DNA of 64,000 nt, from assembly GCF_002105535.1 (NCBI RefSeq), contig NZ_CP015848.1, forward strand, positions 4,020,341 through 4,084,340. Direction: 5' to 3'. A program made the translations under genes and the position numbers. Positions 6,648 through 44,889 of the stretch are shown in pieces. The notes under the pieces are model-generated. The model was not told where the DNA came from, made no database searches, and worked only from the letters and a program-made list of their open reading frames with translations. Numbering within the stretch: the first letter of the stretch is position 1; every line of letters begins with the position of its first letter. This stretch comes from Magnetospirillum sp. ME-1 (lineage in GTDB: Bacteria > Pseudomonadota > Alphaproteobacteria > Rhodospirillales > Magnetospirillaceae).

Positions 6648-8833
6648 GCGGAAGTGACGCCCTGGACCGTCTGGCGCGGTTGGCGGGCATCGAGGACGGC
6701 TGGTGGGATTTCTTTGGGCAGTGGCGCGTGGTGCCGCCCGAGACCAAGCGCGTCTTCCTGGCCGCCATGGGCCTGCCCGCCGACAGCGACGAACAGGTCC
6801 GCGCCAGCTTGCACGACCTGGAAACCCGCTCCTGGCGCCGGGCGCTGGACCCGGTGCTGCTGGCCGACGAGCACGGGGCGCCGCCGTCCATCGCCGTCAC
6901 GCTGCCGGCCGAGGCCGACGACATCCCCCATTCCTGGGTGCTGGAGGAGGAACTGGGCATCCGCCATACCGGCGGCTTCATTCCCTATGAACTGCGCTGG
7001 GGCGAGGAGTATCAGCTGGACGGACGGCTGATCCATCGCCGCTGGCTGGATTTGCCGGCGCTGCCGCCCGCGGGTTATCACCGCCTGACCCTGTCCGGTC
7101 CCAAGGGCGTGCTGGCCGAGATGGCGCTGATCGTCACGCCGCCCAGAGCCTTCGTCCCGGAGGAGCTGGAGCAGGGGGCGGGATGCTGGGGAATCGCCAC
7201 CCAGATCTACTCGTTGCGCTCGGAACGCGACTGGGGCGTGGGCAATTACGGCAATCTGGCCGAACTGGCCGAGGGCGCGGCGCGGGCGGGGGCGGCCTGT
7301 GTCGGAATCAACCCGCTGCACGCCTTGTTTCCCGCCGATCCCGAGCGCTTCAGCCCCTATTCGCCGTCGTCGCGGCGTTTCCTCAACATCGCCTATTTGG
7401 ACGTGGAGGCCATTCCTGAGTTCAAGGAATGCCTGGAAGCCAGGCGCATGTTCGCCTCGCCCGGCTATCAGGCGACGCTGGCCCGGCTGCGCGGCTACCT
7501 GCTGATCGAATACCCGGACGTCATGCGTCTGGCCCGGCCCATGCTCGACGTGCTGTACCGCTGGTTCCGCCGCACCTGCATGGGCGACGACAACCCGCGC
7601 GGCCAGGCCTTCCGCGCCTTCCAGGCCAGGGAGGGCGAATCGGGGCGGCGTTTCGCCGCCTTCGAGGCGCTGCACGACAAATTCGCGCGCGACGGCAAGT
7701 CCTACTGGCGCCAGTGGCCCGAGGAATACCGCCGCCCCGATTCTCCCGCCATCGCCGATTTCATCTTGGAGCATGTGGAGCAGGTGGAGTTCTTCCAGTG
7801 GCTCCAGTTCATCGCCGACGAGCAACTGGCCGAGGCCCAACGAAGGGGCCGCGACGCCGGTTCCGCTATCGGCCTCTACCGCGATCTGGCGGTGGGCATC
7901 GCCGGCGACGGGGGCGAGGCCTGGGCCGAGCAGGATTCCCTGGCGCTCGGCGTCTCGGTCGGCGCGCCGCCCGACCCGCTGGCGCTCAAAGGCCAGGATT
8001 GGGGGCTGGTGCCGTTCAATCCCCTGACCTTGCGCGAGCATTTCTACGGCCCCTTCATCGAGGTGATGGCGGCCAACATGCGCCATGCCGGGGCGTTGCG
8101 CCTGGACCACGCCATGAGTCTGGCGCGGCTTTACTGGGTGCCGCCGGGCCAGCCCGCCGACCAGGGGGCCTATGTGCGCTATCCGGCCGAGGATCTGTTC
8201 CGGCTGGTGGCGCTGGAAAGCCGCCGCAATCGCTGCCTGGTGATCGGCGAGGACCTGGGCACCGTCCCCGAGGGTTTCCGCGAGCGCATGGACCGCATGG
8301 GCATCTTCGCCTATCGGGTGATGGTGTTCGAGAAGACCAAGGACGGCGCCTTCCGCGCCCCCGGCCAGTTTGACGCCCAGGCCCTGGCCATCGCCGCCAC
8401 CCACGACCTGCCCAGTTTGCGCGGCTGGTGGGCGGGCAAGGATATCGACCGGCGGGAAAAGCTGGACCTTTACCCCCGCGAGGGTCAGGCGGGCGAGGAA
8501 CGGGCGGCGCGCGCCGCCGACCGTGCCGCCCTGGCCGCCGCCCTGGCGGAGCAAGGTCTGCTGGCCGCCGACTTCCCCGTTACCCCGGCGCTGACCGATG
8601 CCCAGGCGGTGGCCTTGTCGGCAGCGGTGCATGCTTATCTCGGGCGTTCGGCGTCAAAGCTGATGATGGTGCAGATGGAGGACGTGCTGGGCCAGGAAGT
8701 GCAGATGAACCTGCCCGGCACCACCACCCAGCACCCCAACTGGCGGCTGCGCTACAAGGCCGACACCGCCGCCATCCTGACGGACAAGCGGATGCTGGCG
8801 ACGGCGGAAGGGCTGAAGGCCGGGGGGCGTTGA
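6644..8833 (+). CDS. malQ: 4-alpha-glucanotransferase (amylomaltase) MalQ
   Basis: GH77 enzyme that transfers alpha-1,4-glucan segments between maltooligosaccharides, releasing glucose and longer chains usable by phosphorylase. The 729-residue product matches the long GH77 form with an N-terminal extension of about 150 residues. GH77 motifs are visible, including LRLDHAMSLARLYWVP (nucleophile Asp), VIGEDLGTVPEGFRERM (acid/base Glu) and ATHDLPSLRGWW. The start at 6644 overlaps the glgX stop as ATGA and sits about nine bases after AGAGG. An ATG at 6635 is in frame, but its ribosome site would be too close. The end of the gene is followed by about 160 bases before glgP. Confidence 0.94.
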
Positions 8834-8992
8834 GCGTTCCCCACAACGCCCCTTTCGGGGGGTGGACGGCGGTCATTTCCGTTCTTAATCCGAAATTCAT
8901 AGAATTCCGGTGGTCTGCCGGTATGACCGGTCTTGCCCGCGTTCCCTTTTCGTGGCGGAATGACGAAGGATGGAACTGGCGGGAAGACCGGC

Positions 8993-11449
8993 ATGAAGAA
9001 GGCGAAGCCCCCGGTGGTGCGGTTGCTGGCCGACGATGTGGAAAGCGTCAAGGAAGCGATCAGCAGCCATCTGCTCTACACGGTGGGCAAGGAACCCGTC
9101 AACGCCACGGCGCGCGACTGGTTCATGGCCGCCGCCCACGCGGTGCGCGACCGGGTGACCGAGCATTGGATGCCGACGCTGAACCGCTATTACCGGGAAG
9201 ATTCCAAGCGGGTCTACTACCTGTCCATGGAGTTCCTGATCGGCCGCACCCTGGTCAACAGCCTGATCAATCTGGGCCTCTACGACACGGTGCGCCAGGC
9301 CATCGCCGAACTGGGCCAGGATTTCGACGAACTGTCCGCCTGGGAGGTGGAAGCCGCCCTGGGCAATGGCGGCCTGGGGCGTCTGGCCGCCTGCCTGCTG
9401 GATTCCATGGCCACCATCGGGGTGGCGGGCTTCGGCTACGGCATCCGCTATGATTACGGCATGTTCACCCAGCACGTGGACAACGGCTGGCAGGTGGAAA
9501 GCCCGGAAAACTGGCTGCGCTACGGCAATCCCTGGGAGTTTCCCCGCCCCGGCGTGATCTTCCCCGTCCGCTTCGGCGGCCGCGTCATCCATTTCCGCGA
9601 CGTTCTGGGCCATACCCGTTCGCAATGGGTGGATGCCGAGGAAGTGATGGCCATGGCCTTCGACGTGCCGGTTCCGGGCTTCGGCGGCAAGGTGGTCAAC
9701 AATCTGCGCCTGTGGTCGGCCAAGTCGACGCGCGAGTTCGACCTGAAGTACTTCAACGCCGGCAATTACATCGAGGCGGTGCGCGACAAGAACGAATCCG
9801 AGACCCTGTCCAAGGTACTCTACCCCTCCGACATGACCGACCGGGGCAAGGAGCTGCGCTTCAAGCAGGAATACTTCTTCGTCGCCGCCTCTATCCAGGA
9901 CATCCTGGCCCGTTTCAGGAAAAGCCATTCCGACTGGACCCTGCTGCCCGACAAGGTGGCCATCCAGCTCAACGACACCCACCCGGCGCTGGTGGTGGCG
10001 GAACTGATGCGGGTGCTGGTGGACGAGCACCAGATCGAATGGTCCAAGGCCTGGGAGCTGGTACGGGGCTGCTGCGCCTACACCAACCACACCCTGCTGC
10101 CCGAGGCGCTGGAGACCTGGTCCACCGATCTGTTCGAGCGGGTGCTGCCCCGCCATCTGGAGATCGTCTACGCCCTTAATCACGAATTCCTGCAAAGCGT
10201 GCGGTATCGCCATCCCGGCGATTCGGAATTGCTGCGCCGCGTCTCGCTGATCGCCGAAGGGGCGGAGCGCCGCGTGCGCATGGGCCATCTGGCGGTCATC
10301 GGCAGCCACAAGGTCAACGGCGTCGCCGCCATCCATACCGGCCTGATGAAAAGCACCATCTTCTCGGACTTCGAGCATCTGTCGCCGGGCAAGATCACCA
10401 ACAAGACCAACGGCGTGACGCCGAGGCGCTGGCTGCTGGCCGCCAATCCGGCCCTGTCGGCGCTGATCACCTCCAAGATCGGCGACGGCTGGGTGACCGA
10501 CCTCGACCTTTTGCACAAGCTGGAACCCCTGGCCGACGACGCGGCCTTCCGCAAGGCCTTCGCCGCCGTCAAGCGGGCCAACAAGGAGCGCCTGGCCTCC
10601 ATGCTGTCGCTGCGCTTAGGCGTCGAGGTGGACGTGGATTCCCTGTTCGACGTCCAGGTCAAGCGCATCCACGAATACAAGCGGCAGCTCCTCAACATCT
10701 TGCACGTCATCACCCGCTATGGCCGCATCCGCTCCAACCCGCTGCTCAATCCGGTGCCGCGCACGGTGATCATCGGCGGCAAGGCGGCGCCGGGCTATCA
10801 CGTGGCCAAGCTGATCATCAAGCTGGTCAACGACGTGGCCGAGGTGATCAACAACGATCCCCTGGTGGGCGGCAAGCTGAAGCTGGTCTTCGTGCCCAAT
10901 TACAATGTCTCCACCGCCGAACTGGTCATGCCCGCCGCCGATCTGTCGGAACAGATCTCCACCGCCGGCACCGAGGCGTCGGGCACCGGCAACATGAAGA
11001 TGAGCATGAACGGGGCGCTGACCATCGGCACCTGGGACGGCGCCAACGTGGAAATCTGCGAGGAAGTGGGCGAGGAAAACATGTTCCTGTTCGGCCTTTC
11101 GGCCCAGGAAGTGGCGCGCAAGCGGGTGGACGGCTACGACGCGGTGGCGGCGGTGAAGGCCGATCCCGACCTCTCGTGGGCGCTCGACATGATCGCGTCG
11201 GGCTTCTTCTCGCCCGACCAGCCCGACCGCTTCCACCAGCTGGTGGACATCCTGACCACCGGGGGCGACCACTACCTGCTGTCGGCGGATTTCCCGCTCT
11301 ACATGGCGGCGCAGGAGCGGGTGGACCAGACCTATCGCGACCCGGAGGAGTGGACGCGCAAGGCCATCCTCAACGTGGCGCGCATGGGCAAGTTCTCGTC
11401 CGACCGCACGGTGGCCGAATACGCCAGGGAAATCTGGGGGGCGTTGTAG
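8993..11449 (+). CDS. glgP: Glycogen/maltodextrin phosphorylase GlgP
   Basis: Releases glucose-1-phosphate from the non-reducing ends of glycogen (GT35, pyridoxal-phosphate dependent). From the chosen ATG the protein is 818 residues (E. coli GlgP 815). It begins to align about 30 residues before YTVGKEPV, as in other phosphorylases. The PLP lysine is Lys669 in GTGNMKMSMNGA. Other family blocks are VYYLSMEFLIGRTL, GNGGLGRLAACLLDS and VKRIHEYKRQLLN. In-frame starts at 8960 (ATG) and 8933 (TTG) would add 11 to 20 residues. 8993 was preferred on length and on GGGAAG about 6 bases before it. Last gene of the glycogen cluster. Confidence 0.96.
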   Translation: MKKAKPPVVRLLADDVESVKEAISSHLLYTVGKEPVNATARDWFMAAAHAVRDRVTEHWMPTLNRYYREDSKRVYYLSMEFLIGRTLVNSLINLGLYDTVRQAIAELGQDFDELSAWEVEAALGNGGLGRLAACLLDSMATIGVAGFGYGIRYDYGMFTQHVDNGWQVESPENWLRYGNPWEFPRPGVIFPVRFGGRVIHFRDVLGHTRSQWVDAEEVMAMAFDVPVPGFGGKVVNNLRLWSAKSTREFDLKYFNAGNYIEAVRDKNESETLSKVLYPSDMTDRGKELRFKQEYFFVAASIQDILARFRKSHSDWTLLPDKVAIQLNDTHPALVVAELMRVLVDEHQIEWSKAWELVRGCCAYTNHTLLPEALETWSTDLFERVLPRHLEIVYALNHEFLQSVRYRHPGDSELLRRVSLIAEGAERRVRMGHLAVIGSHKVNGVAAIHTGLMKSTIFSDFEHLSPGKITNKTNGVTPRRWLLAANPALSALITSKIGDGWVTDLDLLHKLEPLADDAAFRKAFAAVKRANKERLASMLSLRLGVEVDVDSLFDVQVKRIHEYKRQLLNILHVITRYGRIRSNPLLNPVPRTVIIGGKAAPGYHVAKLIIKLVNDVAEVINNDPLVGGKLKLVFVPNYNVSTAELVMPAADLSEQISTAGTEASGTGNMKMSMNGALTIGTWDGANVEICEEVGEENMFLFGLSAQEVARKRVDGYDAVAAVKADPDLSWALDMIASGFFSPDQPDRFHQLVDILTTGGDHYLLSADFPLYMAAQERVDQTYRDPEEWTRKAILNVARMGKFSSDRTVAEYAREIWGAL

Positions 11450-37943: not shown

Positions 37944-38665
37944 GGGCGCCCGACACCATTCTTCCCCTCGTCCTCGACCGGGTGGGCTTCGCCGCCGACG
38001 GGCGCATGCTGCTGGAGGACGTCACCCTGCGGCTGGAGGCGGGGCTGCGTACGGTGATTCTCGGCCCCAACGGCGCGGGCAAGAGCCTGCTGCTGCGCCT
38101 GTGCCACGGATTGCTGCAGCCCAGCGCCGGCGCGGTCCATTGGAGTGGCGGGGATGGGGAAATGGTGCGGCGGCATCAGGCCATGGTCTTTCAGCGCCCG
38201 GTTCTGCTGCGCCGCTCGGCGGTGGCCAATATCCGTTATGTCCTGGCTTTAAGGGGCGTCGCCTGGGGCAGGCGGGCCGCGCTGGCCATGGAGGCGCTTG
38301 AGCGTTTCGGGCTCGCCCATCTGGCCCAGCGTCCGGCCCGGGTGCTGTCGGGCGGCGAGCAGCAGCGTCTGGCCCTGGCGCGGGCCTGGGCCGCGGGGGC
38401 CGAGGTGCTGTTTCTGGACGAGCCCACCTCGTCGCTGGATCCGGCGGCCGCCCTGCAGGTGGAGATGGCGGTGCAGGAATTCCACACCGCCGGCACCAAG
38501 GTGGTGATGACCACCCATGACCTGGGCCAGGCCCGCCGCCTGGCCGACGAGGTGGTATTCCTGTCCCGTGGCCGCCTGGTGGAGCACGCCCCGGCGGGAG
38601 AATTCTTCAAGGGGCCGAGATCGCCCCAGGCGCGGGCCTTCCTGGCCGGCGAACTGGTCTGCTGA
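37940..38665 (+). CDS. tupC: Tungstate ABC transporter ATP-binding protein TupC
   Basis: A 241-residue ABC ATPase with Walker A (GPNGAGKSLLL), Q loop (MVFQRPVLLRRS), signature LSGGEQQRLALARA, Walker B VLFLDEPTSSLD and H-loop MTTHDLGQA. There is no C-terminal MOP/TOBE domain, unlike ModC but like TupC. The ATG overlaps the tupB stop, so translation is coupled. Drives tungstate import with TupB and the binding protein TupA. Confidence 0.92.
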   Translation: MRAPDTILPLVLDRVGFAADGRMLLEDVTLRLEAGLRTVILGPNGAGKSLLLRLCHGLLQPSAGAVHWSGGDGEMVRRHQAMVFQRPVLLRRSAVANIRYVLALRGVAWGRRAALAMEALERFGLAHLAQRPARVLSGGEQQRLALARAWAAGAEVLFLDEPTSSLDPAAALQVEMAVQEFHTAGTKVVMTTHDLGQARRLADEVVFLSRGRLVEHAPAGEFFKGPRSPQARAFLAGELVC

Positions 38666-38681
38666 CGAAAGGAACCAATTC

Positions 38682-39491
38682 ATGAAACGCCTGCTGCTTG
38701 CCGCCCTGGCGGCGCTATCGCTTGCCGCGCCCTCCGCCGTTGCCGAGGAACGCTTCATCACCCTGGCCTCGACCACATCGACCGAGCAGTCGGGGCTGTT
38801 CGGCCACCTGCTGCCCCAGTTCAAGGCCGAGACCGGCATCGAGGTCCGGGTGGTGGCGGTCGGCACCGGACAGGCGCTGAAGCTGGGCGAGCGCGGTGAC
38901 GCCGACGCCCTGCTGGTCCATGACCGGGCCGGCGAGGACCGCTTCGTGGCCGAGGGCTTTGGGCTGGACCGCCGCGACGTCATGTACAACGACTTCGTGG
39001 TGGTGGGCCCGGCCGCCGATCCCGCCGGCATCAAGGGCGGCAAGGACGCGGCCCGGGCCTTCGCCAGGATCGCCGCCGCCAAGGCGCCCTTCGCGTCCCG
39101 CGGCGACGATTCCGGCACCCATCGCAGCGAATTGCGCCTGTGGAAGAAGGCCGAGGTGGACATCAAGGCCGGCGGCGGCTGGTATCGCGAACTGGGAGCC
39201 GGCATGGGGCCGACGCTCAACACGGCGGCCGGCATGAACGCCTATGCCCTGGCCGACCGCGGCACCTGGGCCAGCTTCAAGAACCGCCAGTCGCTGGTCC
39301 TCCTGGTGGAAGGCGACCGCGCCCTGTTCAATCCCTACGGCTCGATCCTGGTCAATCCGGAGAAGCACAAGGGCGTCAAGGCCGCCGATGCCAAGGTCTG
39401 GCACCTGTGGCTGACCGGCCCCAAGGGCCAGGCCGCCATCGCCTCGTTCAAGATCGACGGCGAGCAGCTGTTCTTCGGCGAGTCCAAGTAG
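38682..39491 (+). CDS. tupA: Tungstate-binding protein TupA
   Basis: A 269-residue periplasmic solute-binding protein. Signal peptide: MKRLLL, hydrophobic run, PSAVAEE. The mature N terminus carries TLASTTSTEQSGLFGHLLP, the T-T-S-T motif typical of TupA oxyanion binding. VMYNDFVVVGPAADPAGI and ASRGDDSGTHRSELRLW are further family blocks. GAAAGGAA precedes the ATG. Supplies tungstate to TupBC. The presence of a tungsten AOR about 12 kb upstream in the window gives this importer an obvious client. Confidence 0.92.
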   Translation: MKRLLLAALAALSLAAPSAVAEERFITLASTTSTEQSGLFGHLLPQFKAETGIEVRVVAVGTGQALKLGERGDADALLVHDRAGEDRFVAEGFGLDRRDVMYNDFVVVGPAADPAGIKGGKDAARAFARIAAAKAPFASRGDDSGTHRSELRLWKKAEVDIKAGGGWYRELGAGMGPTLNTAAGMNAYALADRGTWASFKNRQSLVLLVEGDRALFNPYGSILVNPEKHKGVKAADAKVWHLWLTGPKGQAAIASFKIDGEQLFFGESK

Positions 39492-39506: not shown

Positions 39507-40358
39507 ATGAATAGGCGAATGTTCCTGGGGGCGGCGATGGGGGCCGTTGGCGCGGCGTCCCTCGCCCAGGCGGCCGATCCGGCCGAGGTGGTGTTGCTGG
39601 GCAGCACCATCGGTCCCATCGATTCCGGCATCGTGCCCGCTTTGGCCAAGGCCTTCCATGCCCGCACCGGCGTCGTGGTGCGCTTCGTGGGTGCCGGCAC
39701 CGGGGCCACCTTGGAGATGTCCAAGCGGGGCGAGTTCGATCTGGTGATGGTCCACGCCCTGTCGCTGGAAAAGAAATTCATGGCCGATGGCTTCGGCATC
39801 GACCGCCGCGACGTCATGTACAACGACTTCGTCCTGCTGGGGCCGGCTGCCGATCCGGCCGGCATCAAGGGGATGAACGACCCCAAGGCGGCGTTGCGCC
39901 GGATTGCCGAGACCCAGGCCCGCTTCGTCACCCGGGGCGACAATTCCGGCACCCATGTGGCGGAAAAGGCCCTGTGGGAGAGGGCCGGGCTGCAACCCCA
40001 GGGCGCCTGGTACGAGGTGTTCGAGAAAGGCGCCAGCGGTAACGGCCCCACCCTCCGCCACGCCGATGACCGCGGCGCCTACGTGCTGATGGACCGGGCC
40101 ACCTGGCTGGTGCTGAAGGCCAGGCTGTCGCTGGCTCTGCTGGTGGAGAACCACGCGGACCTGTTCAATTTCATCGCCGTCATCCGCAGCAATCCCGAAC
40201 GCTTCCCCAAGGCCAATGCCGCCGGGGCGCTGCGATTCGCCGACTGGCTGGTGGGCGACGAGGCGCAAGGGCTGATCGCCGAATACGGCAAGGCGGAATA
40301 CGGCGCGCCGCTGTTCTTCGCCAATGCGGGCTCGAAGGTGCGGCCCCCCGGTCTGTGA
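39507..40358 (+). CDS. Second TupA-like binding protein with altered ligand motif
   Basis: A 283-residue periplasmic binding protein. Signal peptide near AASLAQAADPAE. It is clearly homologous to TupA just upstream (shared GFGIDRRDVMYNDFVLLGPA, RGDNSGTHVAEKALW and GNGPTLRHADDRGAYVLMDR). The T-T-S-T motif that contacts tungstate is replaced by LGSTIGPIDSGI, so binding may be to a different anion or with changed affinity. It uses no transporter of its own and would share TupBC. AGGGGAGG precedes the ATG. A strong terminator follows, so it is the last gene of the operon. Confidence 0.88.
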   Translation: MNRRMFLGAAMGAVGAASLAQAADPAEVVLLGSTIGPIDSGIVPALAKAFHARTGVVVRFVGAGTGATLEMSKRGEFDLVMVHALSLEKKFMADGFGIDRRDVMYNDFVLLGPAADPAGIKGMNDPKAALRRIAETQARFVTRGDNSGTHVAEKALWERAGLQPQGAWYEVFEKGASGNGPTLRHADDRGAYVLMDRATWLVLKARLSLALLVENHADLFNFIAVIRSNPERFPKANAAGALRFADWLVGDEAQGLIAEYGKAEYGAPLFFANAGSKVRPPGL

Positions 40359-40625: not shown

Positions 40626-40917
40626 GATAAACCAGCCATGTTTAAGGTTGCCAATTAAGCTTATCTTATAAAGATACTGGTCATCTGTCCGTGAAGGTGT
40701 TCACAGATAAAATTTTAAATAAATTTTTACTATAAATATCGCGGCCTTGACGCCAATGTCCCTAGCCAATCTCTGGGTTTGTTCGGTAACGGAAAGTAAT
40801 TTCGACGCGGCAACGGTTGAAGTCGGGCGGCCGAAGTGTCACCATATTGGGTATGGGCCGGATTCGTGGGCCGTTGTCGCTGTGGCGGCGCGCGGACGAT
40901 GGTTTGGAGAAAAGCGC
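40626..40917. other. AT-rich intergenic region before the RcdA homologue
   Basis: No convincing gene. Bases about 40645-40740 are strikingly AT-rich (AAATTTTAAATAAATTTTT) compared with a window above 65 percent GC by eye. They include an imperfect dyad, ATCTGT/ACAGAT with GTGAA/TTCAC inside (40683-40708). The second half is GC-rich and could encode extra N-terminal codons of the next gene, but lacks a good start. Probably holds divergent promoters. Confidence 0.5.
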
Positions 40918-41319
40918 ATGCCCCAGCCCGCTTTTTTTCGCAGAACCTACGACGAGACCATGACCTTGATGGTCGAGGCCCGGAACTATCTGACTTATGC
41001 CGAGCGTCGGGAACGCGAGCGGGTCGGCGGGATGATCGGCCTGCGCATGAGCTGCGAGGCCATGCGGGTCACTTCGCGCCTGACCCAGGTGATGGCGTGG
41101 CTGATGCTGCAGCGGGCGGTGCATGAGGGCGAGGTGGAGGTCGAGGACAGCTTGCGCGACGAATGCCGTCTGTCGGGGGCGGATGTCTGTCTGGACGAGA
41201 GTTTCAACTGCGACGAAACTCTGCCCAATCATCTGCGCAGCCTGATGGACCGTTCCTACCGCCTGTACGTCCGGGTGGCCAGACTGGAAGAGATGCTGGT
41301 GCAGCGGGTGCTGCATTAA
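40918..41319 (+). CDS. rcdA: RcdA-like (DUF1465) protein
   Basis: RcdA is an adaptor that helps ClpXP degrade the cell-cycle regulator CtrA in Caulobacter. The 133-residue helical protein matches the family (formerly DUF1465) in blocks such as RMSCEAMRVTSRLTQVMAWL and the following MLQRAVHEGEVEVED. It is somewhat shorter than Caulobacter RcdA, lacking part of its C-terminal tail that binds cargo. ATG at 40918 with TGGAGA seven bases before it; a reading from 40747 adds residues unlike the family. Next gene (28 bases on) is a membrane cyclase. Confidence 0.75.
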   Translation: MPQPAFFRRTYDETMTLMVEARNYLTYAERRERERVGGMIGLRMSCEAMRVTSRLTQVMAWLMLQRAVHEGEVEVEDSLRDECRLSGADVCLDESFNCDETLPNHLRSLMDRSYRLYVRVARLEEMLVQRVLH

Positions 41320-41347: not shown

Positions 41348-43003
41348 ATGATGGTGTTGCGGTTTCGCGCCGACCTGCGCCTGGTGGGCGCATTGGTGAT
41401 TCTGGCATTCGTCATCTGCCATCTCGTCAATCACATGCTCGCCCTGATCTCGCTGGATGTCGCCATGGCGGGCCACGACGTCCTGATGGAGCCGTGGGAG
41501 GGCGCCATCGGCACGGGGCTGCTGCTGACGGCGGGCCTTACCCATTACCTCAATGCCCTGTGGGCGGTGTACGAGCGCCGGACCCTGCGCATGGGCGGCG
41601 TGGAGGCCTGGCAGCTGGGCCTGGGCCTGTCGATCCCGTTCCTGATGATCGTTCATCTGAGCGGTACCCGGCTGGGCGAATTGGTTCTGGGCCTGGAGCC
41701 CGGCTACCCGTCCGTCCTGCTCAGCCAGTGGGTCTTGAGCCCCTGGAAGGGAGTGAGCCAGGCGATACTGGTCCTGGTGGTCTGGGGCCATGCCTGTGCC
41801 GGGCTGCATCTGCGCTTCTCGATGCGCTCCGGCTACGACAGCGCCAGGCCCTGGCTGCTGGCCCTGGCGGTCGTCGTTCCCACCCTGTCGCTGGCCGGCT
41901 GGGTGGCCGGCGGCAGTTTCGTCATGCGGGCCGCCGCCGATCCCCAATGGACGGGCCGGGTGCTGGCCGAGGCCCATATGGGCCCCGATACGGCGGCGGA
42001 CACCTTGCGCCTGATGCTGATCGGGGTCGGGCTTCACGCTCTGCTGATCGCCTTGCCCCTCGGCGGCCGGGCCTTGAGGCTGCTAGGCGGCGGCAAGCGT
42101 CCCCAGCTCACCCATTCCAGCGGCCGGGTGATGCGCATGATGCCCGGGGCGTCGGTGCTCGAGACCTTGCAGGATCACGGGATCGCCCATGCCGCGGCCT
42201 GCGGGGGCAAGGCGCGCTGCACCACCTGCCGGGTGCGCGTTCGCGCCGGGGCCGACCGATTGCCGCCCCCCGGCCCGCAGGAGATGGCGGCCCTGACCCG
42301 AATCGAGGCCCCGCCCGAGGTTCGCCTGGCCTGCCAGCTGCGCCCCGACCACGATCTGGCGGTTCTGCCGCTGCTGCCCTCGGACGCCGCCGCCGCCGAA
42401 GGGCGGCTGCACGGAGGATTGGATGGGCGCGAGCGCCACGTGGTGGTGATGTTCGTCGATCTGCGGGGCTCGACCACCCTGGGCGAGGCCAAGATGCCCT
42501 ACGACATGCTGTTCATCCTGCACCGGTTCTTCCAGCAGATGACCCGCGCCCTGTCGGCCACCGGCGGACACTATTCCAACTTCACCGGCGACGGGTTGAT
42601 GGCGCTGTACGGGCTGAAGGTGGGGGATGCCGGCAAGATGGTGAAAGCGGCCCTGGCGGGGGCGCGTCAGATGGTGGCCGGTCTCGAGGCCTTGAACGCC
42701 GAACTGGCCATGGAGCTCTCGGCCCCCTTGCGCATGGGCATCGGCATCCATTACGGCGAGGCCATCGTCGGCACCATGGGGCCGCCCGGCGCCCAGATCG
42801 TCAGCGCCATCGGCGATACGGTCAACACCACCGCCCGCCTGGAGGGGCTGACCAAGGACCATGACTGCCTGCTGGTGCTGTCCGCCGCCGCCGCCCTGGC
42901 CGGCGGCCTGGACGTCGCCGGAGAGCCCCGGCATCAGGTGACGGTGAAGGGCCGGGTGGAGCCGGTGGAATTCTTCGCGTTCAGGGAAATTCCCGACAGA
43001 TAG
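41348..43003 (+). CDS. Redox-type class III nucleotide cyclase: haem-b-like anchor, [2Fe-2S] domain, cyclase
   Basis: A 551-residue protein. Residues about 10-250 form six helices with paired histidines (His25, His29, His66, His103, His148, His154) like a succinate dehydrogenase/fumarate reductase cytochrome b anchor. CyaC of Sinorhizobium meliloti has such a diheme anchor and responds to quinones. Residues about 260-345 form a plant-type ferredoxin domain with C-G-G-K-A-R-C-T-T-C and a distal LACQ cysteine. The cyclase domain (about 360-545) has metal Asp residues in VMFVDLRGSTTL and FTGDGLMALYG, and GDTVNTTARLE (transition-state Asn/Arg). Expected to make cAMP (possibly cGMP) in response to respiratory redox state. 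Follows the rcdA-like gene by 28 bases. Confidence 0.87.
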   Translation: MMVLRFRADLRLVGALVILAFVICHLVNHMLALISLDVAMAGHDVLMEPWEGAIGTGLLLTAGLTHYLNALWAVYERRTLRMGGVEAWQLGLGLSIPFLMIVHLSGTRLGELVLGLEPGYPSVLLSQWVLSPWKGVSQAILVLVVWGHACAGLHLRFSMRSGYDSARPWLLALAVVVPTLSLAGWVAGGSFVMRAAADPQWTGRVLAEAHMGPDTAADTLRLMLIGVGLHALLIALPLGGRALRLLGGGKRPQLTHSSGRVMRMMPGASVLETLQDHGIAHAAACGGKARCTTCRVRVRAGADRLPPPGPQEMAALTRIEAPPEVRLACQLRPDHDLAVLPLLPSDAAAAEGRLHGGLDGRERHVVVMFVDLRGSTTLGEAKMPYDMLFILHRFFQQMTRALSATGGHYSNFTGDGLMALYGLKVGDAGKMVKAALAGARQMVAGLEALNAELAMELSAPLRMGIGIHYGEAIVGTMGPPGAQIVSAIGDTVNTTARLEGLTKDHDCLLVLSAAAALAGGLDVAGEPRHQVTVKGRVEPVEFFAFREIPDR

Positions 43004-43017
43004 GCAGAAGGGGACGG

Positions 43018-44760
43018 CTAGCGCCAGACCACTTCCCACAGTTGGAACTTTTCCTTGAAGCCCTTCAGGGAGTGGGTGCCGCCGTCCACGAAGGTGCCCA
43101 CCGGCCCGGCCAGATCCTTCACCGACTGGGTGCAGAGGATCTGATCGGAATCGGTGGCGGCGCAGACGCGGGCCGAGAGCTGGACGGTGGAGCCGAACAG
43201 GTCGTCCTCTTCCTGAATGGGTTCGCCGGCGTTCAGCCCGATGCGCAGATGCAGCGGCAGGTTGGGCTGCTTCTCGTTGTGGGCGGTGACCTGGCGCTGG
43301 ACCTGGACCATGGCTTCCACCGCATTGGCCGCCGAGGCGAAGGAGGCCATGATGCCGTCGCCCGTGTGCTTGACCTCGCGCCCGGCGAACTGGGTCAGCG
43401 CCGTGCGCACGATGGCGTTGTGCTTGCGCACGATCTCCTGCGCCGCCTGGTCGCCGCGCGCCTGGGTCAGGTCGGTGGAGCCCACCATGTCGGTGAAGAC
43501 CACGGTCATCAGGCCCGACGCCTTCTTCTCGGCGGCGGGCTTGTTCCAGTCCTTCAGCGAGGACTGGAGCTTGATCATCGGCGTTCCCTCGTCGCCCTCC
43601 GCCCAGGATTCCATGGAGGACTTGCCCGCTTCGAACATGCGGGCATAGCGCTGTTCGCCCATGTATCCCGGCACCTTGTCGTAGAAGAGGGCCGCCTGGT
43701 CGCCCGGCGTGCCCAGCTTCTCGATGATCGACTTCAGCAGCTTGCGCTGGCCCGCCGAATCCAGCTTCTGGGCCCGGGCGATGGTCTGGACGGCGCCGGC
43801 CATGAACAGGTTGAGGCCGAAGGTGGTGTACTTGTCGGTGCTGGGCGCGACCTGGCGGACGATCTCCATGGACTTGTCCACGAAGCGGTCGGTGACCTTT
43901 CTGGTGGCCTCCAGGGCCGGGGTGGAGGGGATGGCATCCACCGCCGCTTCGGCCGCCGACGGCTCCTCGGGCAGGGCGGCCTGAGGCGGGGGCTCTTCCT
44001 CCGCGGGCGGCGGGGGCGGTTCCGGCTCGGGGTCGTCGCCCCAGGTCTCGGGAATCATCTCCGCCTCGGCCTTCCGGGCCAGCTTGTTCAGCGACTTCTT
44101 CACCGCTTCCGAGGGTTGCGGCCTGGGGGGCGGAGCCGCCACCGAGCCGCCCCGGTTGAACTGGATGTTGGCGTTGCGCGGCATGAAGCGCAGGCCCAGC
44201 GGCACGGCGGTCATCAGGAACACCAGACCGAACACCAGCACCAGCATCTGCCCATATTCGTCGGGGGTGATGCGGAAACCGAAATCGTAGAGGAAGACGA
44301 TGGCGGACGGCACCAGGCGCAATGCCCCCAAACCCAACCCCGACGCCACCAGCAAAATGACGGTCAGGCGCAGGATCATGGCGCCGGCCCCGATGGAGGG
44401 GCCGCTGGTCCGCGCCCTGGCGGCCTTGGCGGCCTTCTTGGCCGCCGCCGCCTTGGCGGCGCCGCCCCCTTTGCCGGAATCCCTGCCCGAGCCGCCGCCG
44501 CCGCCGCCGCCCTTGCCGCCGCCCGCCGCCGCGCCCTTCTTGGGCTGGACGTTGTGGCCGGACATGTAGACTTCGGCTTCGTCGAAGACGTTGGTGTCGG
44601 TGTTGTAGGTTTCGCGCAGCACTTTGGTGCGCACGCCAAGGGTGTTTTCCAACTCCTTGGCCTCGCGGACAGCCTCGTCACGCTCCAGCCGCGGGAAGCG
44701 TGCGTGCAGCATCCACCCCCGGCCTTCCATGACGTAAACTTCAAAATGAACGATGATCAT
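43018..44760 (-). CDS. Membrane-bound class III nucleotide cyclase with unusual N-terminal domain
   Basis: A 580-residue protein. The first ~70 residues form a small soluble domain (IIVHFEVYVMEGRGWMLHAR; TKVLRETYNTDTNVFDEAEV) I cannot name. Next come a Gly-rich linker with eight-plus consecutive Gly-rich residues and a Lys/Ala-rich stretch, then two membrane helices (about 130-200). A Pro/Glu-rich cytosolic region and a helical segment (about 290-390) follow. The C-terminal cyclase (about 405-575) has VVFTDMVGSTDLTQ, HTGDGIMASFAS and FGSTVQLSARVC. Metal aspartates and the Arg are intact; the Asn position is Gln (VQLSAR). The start at 44760 is ATG; GTG at 44790 is possible. Convergent with the redox cyclase, 14 bases apart. 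Confidence 0.85.
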   Translation of the reverse strand: MIIVHFEVYVMEGRGWMLHARFPRLERDEAVREAKELENTLGVRTKVLRETYNTDTNVFDEAEVYMSGHNVQPKKGAAAGGGKGGGGGGGSGRDSGKGGGAAKAAAAKKAAKAARARTSGPSIGAGAMILRLTVILLVASGLGLGALRLVPSAIVFLYDFGFRITPDEYGQMLVLVFGLVFLMTAVPLGLRFMPRNANIQFNRGGSVAAPPPRPQPSEAVKKSLNKLARKAEAEMIPETWGDDPEPEPPPPPAEEEPPPQAALPEEPSAAEAAVDAIPSTPALEATRKVTDRFVDKSMEIVRQVAPSTDKYTTFGLNLFMAGAVQTIARAQKLDSAGQRKLLKSIIEKLGTPGDQAALFYDKVPGYMGEQRYARMFEAGKSSMESWAEGDEGTPMIKLQSSLKDWNKPAAEKKASGLMTVVFTDMVGSTDLTQARGDQAAQEIVRKHNAIVRTALTQFAGREVKHTGDGIMASFASAANAVEAMVQVQRQVTAHNEKQPNLPLHLRIGLNAGEPIQEEDDLFGSTVQLSARVCAATDSDQILCTQSVKDLAGPVGTFVDGGTHSLKGFKEKFQLWEVVWR

Positions 44761-44889
44761 GTCCGCCCAATCACCGTCTTGGCCAATCACAGTTTGGCTT
44801 CAATTACAATTCAGCCAGGGAGTATCGCAGCTCCCTTATTAAAAATTTGCTCTACCCGTAGAACGTCAAGAAGTCCACTGCAAACACTT

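Follow-up and report, generated by a model that had tools for sequence, protein, structure and literature searches.

Background

The gene at 41348..43003 (+) of the window (the whole 64,000-nucleotide stretch of Magnetospirillum sp. ME-1 DNA analysed here, from a genome that is a single 4.55 Mb contig) encodes a six-helix membrane anchor (6TM), a [2Fe-2S] domain and a class III nucleotide cyclase in one chain, and the question it raises is what such a protein senses, which nucleotide it makes and whether its combination of parts is new. The initial annotation took it for a CyaC-type dihaem anchor and cyclase to which a redox module had been added, probably serving as a respiratory redox sensor.

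CyaC (SMc01818) of Sinorhizobium meliloti was reportedly the subject of a study by Wissig in 2019. This cyclase has a [2Fe-2S] cluster besides two haems b, its haems respond to ubiquinone and its redox state alters cyclase activity (PMC10463352), and the cited CyaC descriptions assign no relay role to the cluster. Cluster 1 of Beltz 2016 comprises 30 class IIIb cyclases from alpha- and betaproteobacteria with predicted binding of two haems, in which a ferredoxin lies between a four-histidine 6TM anchor and the catalytic domain; its example, R. palustris Q132R4, was presented there without experimental data (PMC4821796). In this study, the window protein was compared with these systems and with 110 relatives, and by analogy with CyaC it is very probably, like that enzyme, a class III nucleotide cyclase that is bound to the membrane and regulated by redox state.

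Gene and domain order

The open reading frame at 41348-43003 (+) begins with ATG, runs for 551 aa with no internal stops and agrees to the base with the frame first proposed. Pfam analysis of the protein identified, both above the gathering score, a Fer2 domain at residues 261-333 (42128..42346 (+), E 7e-8) and a Guanylate_cyc domain at residues 363-543 (42434..42976 (+), E 1.6e-14), preceded by the anchor at residues 1-250 (41348..42097 (+)). Full-length relatives within the genus are 69-90% identical to the protein, and a relative from Magnetospirillum moscoviense is 78% identical over almost its whole length. The model of the full-length protein reached a pTM of only 0.52.

Six-helix anchor and predicted haem ligands

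When the anchor alone was modelled with 36 relatives by AlphaFold, six long helices were obtained (mean pLDDT 95.5, pTM 0.89). Residues 1-250 of the window protein matched no Pfam or NCBIfam model. A fold search of 350,542 PDB chains gave as its best match 2bs4_C, the cytochrome subunit of the dihaem quinol:fumarate reductase of Wolinella succinogenes (prob 0.99, TM 0.51, E 0.32), and the D. gigas enzyme was also among the matches (prob 0.84). In a profile search of PDB sequences the sole match was SdhC 6lum_C (E 0.029), and NCBIfam sdhC_b558 was matched by 9 of the 36 anchors (best E 0.003). Although SdhC/FrdC proteins head the lists from both the fold and the profile search, the E-values of 0.32 and 0.029 are weak, as is that of the NCBIfam match; it is from the agreement of the fold, profile and NCBIfam matches, not from any single value, that we take the anchor to be related to SdhC/FrdC cytochrome b. 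The same SdhC-like similarity was described for the anchors of cluster 1 cyclases (PMC4821796). Positive charges are commoner in the cytoplasmic loops of the predicted N-in/C-in topology, and this positive-inside pattern would place the ferredoxin and cyclase domains in the cytoplasm. Like W. succinogenes FrdC and SdhC b558, the anchor has candidate ligand histidines on four successive helices, and FrdC is its best fold match; it differs in having six helices instead of five, in being fused to ferredoxin and cyclase and in having no flavoprotein partner. A b558-type SdhC, sought for a residue-level alignment of haem ligands, did not turn up among 299 genomes from the phylum or in five others.

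The six helices and six histidines of the initial annotation are all present. H25 (41420..41422) and H29 (41432..41434) lie on predicted TM1, H66 (41543..41545) on TM2, H103 (41654..41656) on TM3, and H148 (41789..41791) and H154 (41807..41809) on TM4, all on the + strand. At the first four of these positions the family alignment holds letters for 108 of the 110 relatives, and histidine is found at H25, H66 and H103 in 108/108 and at H148 in 110/110. H29 is histidine in 104/108 and H154 in 86/110, the latter being replaced in 24/110 (Tyr in 18). Ten aligned relatives that have no cyclase keep the four universal histidines and the four cluster cysteines described below, but neither H154 nor H29, whose position is non-His in these ten. 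Since H29 and H154 both vary and the other four do not, the two are taken as accessory, H29 probably not being an axial ligand, and a scheme with six axial ligands is ruled out. The universal H25, H66, H103 and H148 match the four-histidine signature from which two haems are predicted. In FrdC, the distal haem is held by helices 1 and 3 and the proximal haem by helices 2 and 4. The helix positions in the window protein fit this plan, and so the predicted pairs are H25/H103 for a distal haem near the periplasm and H66/H148 for a proximal haem nearer the cytoplasm.

Ferredoxin domain and assignment to a known class

The predicted cluster ligands C285, C291, C294 and C329 (42200..42334 (+)) follow the pattern C-x5-C-x2-C-x34-C, and each is cysteine in 110/110 relatives; the conservation of the four histidines and four cysteines in this alignment is far beyond chance. 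The domain had been called plant-type, which is incorrect: plant-type ferredoxins have C-x4-C-x2-C. The nearest NCBIfam models are nqrF and fdx_isc, both below cut-off, and the nearest solved structures are ISC ferredoxins and putidaredoxin. Judged by spacing and by these nearest models and structures, the domain is of the adrenodoxin/ISC/NqrF kind.

Among solved structures, the catalytic domain is nearest to Cya2 (2w01) and Spirulina CyaC (1wc1/1wc0). Alignment places the metal-binding aspartates at D371 and D415 and the transition-state residues at N493 and R497. The window protein therefore has every architectural feature of cluster 1 that was examined, namely a six-helix N-terminal anchor, four spaced intramembrane histidines, a four-cysteine ferredoxin between anchor and cyclase, and a class III domain with D371, D415, N493 and R497. 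R. palustris Q132R4 likewise has an SdhC-like four-histidine 6TM anchor and a ferredoxin before the cyclase. S. meliloti CyaC shares the 6TM two-haem-b anchor (predicted here), the [2Fe-2S] domain, the class III cyclase and the transition-state Asn/Arg. Because of this match, we assign the protein on sequence to the CyaC type, cluster 1 of Beltz 2016, a class already described, and see no added module in it. The universal histidines and the identical published order of parts bear out the idea of a cyclase joined to a predicted two-haem anchor of the CyaC kind, and the architecture favours a respiratory redox sensor of that type. The ferredoxin is no extra, for it defines cluster 1 (PMC4821796) and CyaC itself has the cluster (PMC10463352).

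Neighbouring genes

A DUF1465/RcdA-like gene (40747-41319 (+), Pfam E 3.5e-29, with a match to NCBIfam ProtaseAdptRcdA below cut-off) lies 28 bp upstream of the cyclase gene. The two genes are kept together in three relatives and may form an operon. In S. meliloti, by contrast, the gene before cyaC is cycR, which encodes a TetR regulator; with the DUF1465 gene directly upstream (E 3.5e-29), the locus does not have the TetR neighbour that goes with a CyaC-CycR-Clr complex. Before the DUF1465 gene are two adjacent related TupA-like (tungstate-binding) genes (38517-39491 and 39507-40358, both (+)), and a search of relatives with either one also hits the other copy at ~45% identity. Convergent with the cyclase gene, and ending 14 bp from its end, is another class III cyclase gene whose N-terminal region differs (43018-44790 (-)); this pair too is kept in three relatives. 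Of six related genomes inspected, three share the gene order around the cyclase gene and three lack it, and function therefore seems not to depend on it.

Relatives without the anchor or without the cyclase

In three same-genus genomes without the anchored form (G003, G011 and G014), the only close relative is an anchorless ferredoxin-cyclase (L121 3883-4845, L122 and L123) of about 300-390 aa, with 62-65% identity across the shared part. In G011, the start of a divergent gene lies ~80 bp before that of the ferredoxin-cyclase gene and leaves no room for an anchor. A further candidate, L124 (G060), was set aside because a contig end cuts the gene and the anchor part is on another contig. In a quick tree the anchorless group (support 99) is sister to the anchored clade of the genus (98), and the outer relatives are anchored; on this basis one loss of the anchor is the simplest reading. 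The anchorless relatives indicate that haems are dispensable in some versions of the protein.

Proteins with the 6TM anchor and ferredoxin but no cyclase, about 370-425 aa long, occur in Alphaproteobacteria (L156-L165, L170 and L176). At 12/12 of these loci the next same-strand gene downstream encodes an MscS-type channel, and the gene ends often overlap by a few bases, as in L158 (6073-7179, then 7176-9479). The channel was identified by Pfam for six loci and by tblastn with one of those six for all twelve. L189 was rejected as a cyclase-less case because the sequence right after it matches a cyclase, evidently in another frame. A literature search found no description of the anchor-ferredoxin/MscS pairing. 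The gene pair may encode a redox-controlled channel, and the pairing suggests that haem anchor and [2Fe-2S] domain may form one redox-input unit with exchangeable outputs.

Proposed mechanism and alternatives

For the CyaC-type reading, the gene, its architecture and the conserved haem-type histidines, cluster cysteines and catalytic residues are observed here, and the two haems b, the cluster and the response to quinone are carried over from CyaC. The two haems b of the anchor would exchange electrons with the ubiquinone pool. Their redox state would set how active a homodimeric cyclase is, probably in concert with the [2Fe-2S] domain located where TM6 emerges into the cytoplasm. The cyclic nucleotide may then act via CRP-type regulators; the genome contains 27 matches to cNMP-binding domains. 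Our working hypothesis is the complete route quinone -> haem -> [2Fe-2S] -> cyclase, and we infer the ligand pairing, the passage of electrons through the cluster, the sign of the response and the nucleotide made. Against the CyaC-type reading count Asn at position 411 in place of Lys, an upstream gene that is not TetR (CycR), the weak E-values of the fold and profile matches, and the anchorless relatives within the genus.

The [2Fe-2S] domain might itself do the sensing, its signal being O2, oxidants, NO or cluster supply and the anchor mainly a membrane tether, as the three same-genus genomes that keep a ferredoxin-cyclase without an anchor, and the supported sister position of these forms, would allow. 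We consider this unlikely, as the four haem histidines are invariant among anchored members and the CyaC haems respond to quinone with a change in activity on redox change (PMC10463352). It is also conceivable that the protein is an electron carrier first, with quinol as donor, haem and [2Fe-2S] as the route and a soluble partner as acceptor, while the cyclase reports the flux. Haems and an adrenodoxin/ISC-type ferredoxin would make a plausible wire, and the anchor-ferredoxin unit is also found without a cyclase; however, a fusion to a reductase or oxidase is absent, and the gene beside the cyclase-less copies encodes a channel instead of an oxidoreductase, which makes this idea very improbable.

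The third alternative concerns the product. In the numbering of CyaC, K410/T484 are the nucleotide residues of a class III cyclase and N491/R495 the transition-state pair. Both pairs were mutated in CyaC (PMC10463352), and their equivalents in the window protein are N411 (42578..42580 (+), placed by the alignment of 110 relatives), S486, N493 and R497. Compared by published residue numbers, CyaC thus has K410/T484 where the window protein has N411/S486; a cAMP-specific enzyme would have the adenine-selecting Lys with Asp, or with Thr/Ser in class IIIb, and with N411 beside S486 we do not file the protein as one. Across the family, position 411 is Gln in 61/110, Lys in 33/110 and Asn in 12/110; non-Lys being the majority state, cAMP specificity is not transferable from CyaC. 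A cGMP product, alone or alongside cAMP, instead of the activity of a cAMP-specific adenylate cyclase would agree with N411/S486 and with Lys in just 33/110 relatives. A preference for ATP is kept by some cyclases with other non-canonical pairs, Rv1900c among them. It is Glu that takes the Lys position in guanylate cyclases (PMC4215837), which lends the idea some support, yet Asn and Gln differ from Glu, and we regard a cGMP product as possible but rather doubtful.

In ~2/3 of 6TM-ferredoxin cyclases, Gln or Asn replaces the adenine-selecting Lys; the R. palustris homologue L078 has Gln where the window protein has Asn. Two Rhizobiaceae-family proteins (L142 and L149) have K410/T484/N491/R495 at exactly the numbers of CyaC, and neither is claimed as its orthologue, the neighbouring ORFs examined being without a TetR domain.

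Conclusions

Most of the family has Asn or Gln at the specificity position, and a cAMP product should therefore not be assumed. With natural relatives that lack either the anchor or the cyclase, experiments can tell apart what haem and cluster each do. More tentatively, the anchor and ferredoxin may be a portable sensor of the quinone pool, with electrons that would gate a fused cyclase of non-canonical nucleotide preference here and a separate MscS-type channel elsewhere in Alphaproteobacteria. A class of quinone-sensing cyclases whose known tested example is only rhizobial would now reach a Magnetospirillum-like bacterium, for which redox position is probably important in a life spent at oxic-anoxic boundaries.
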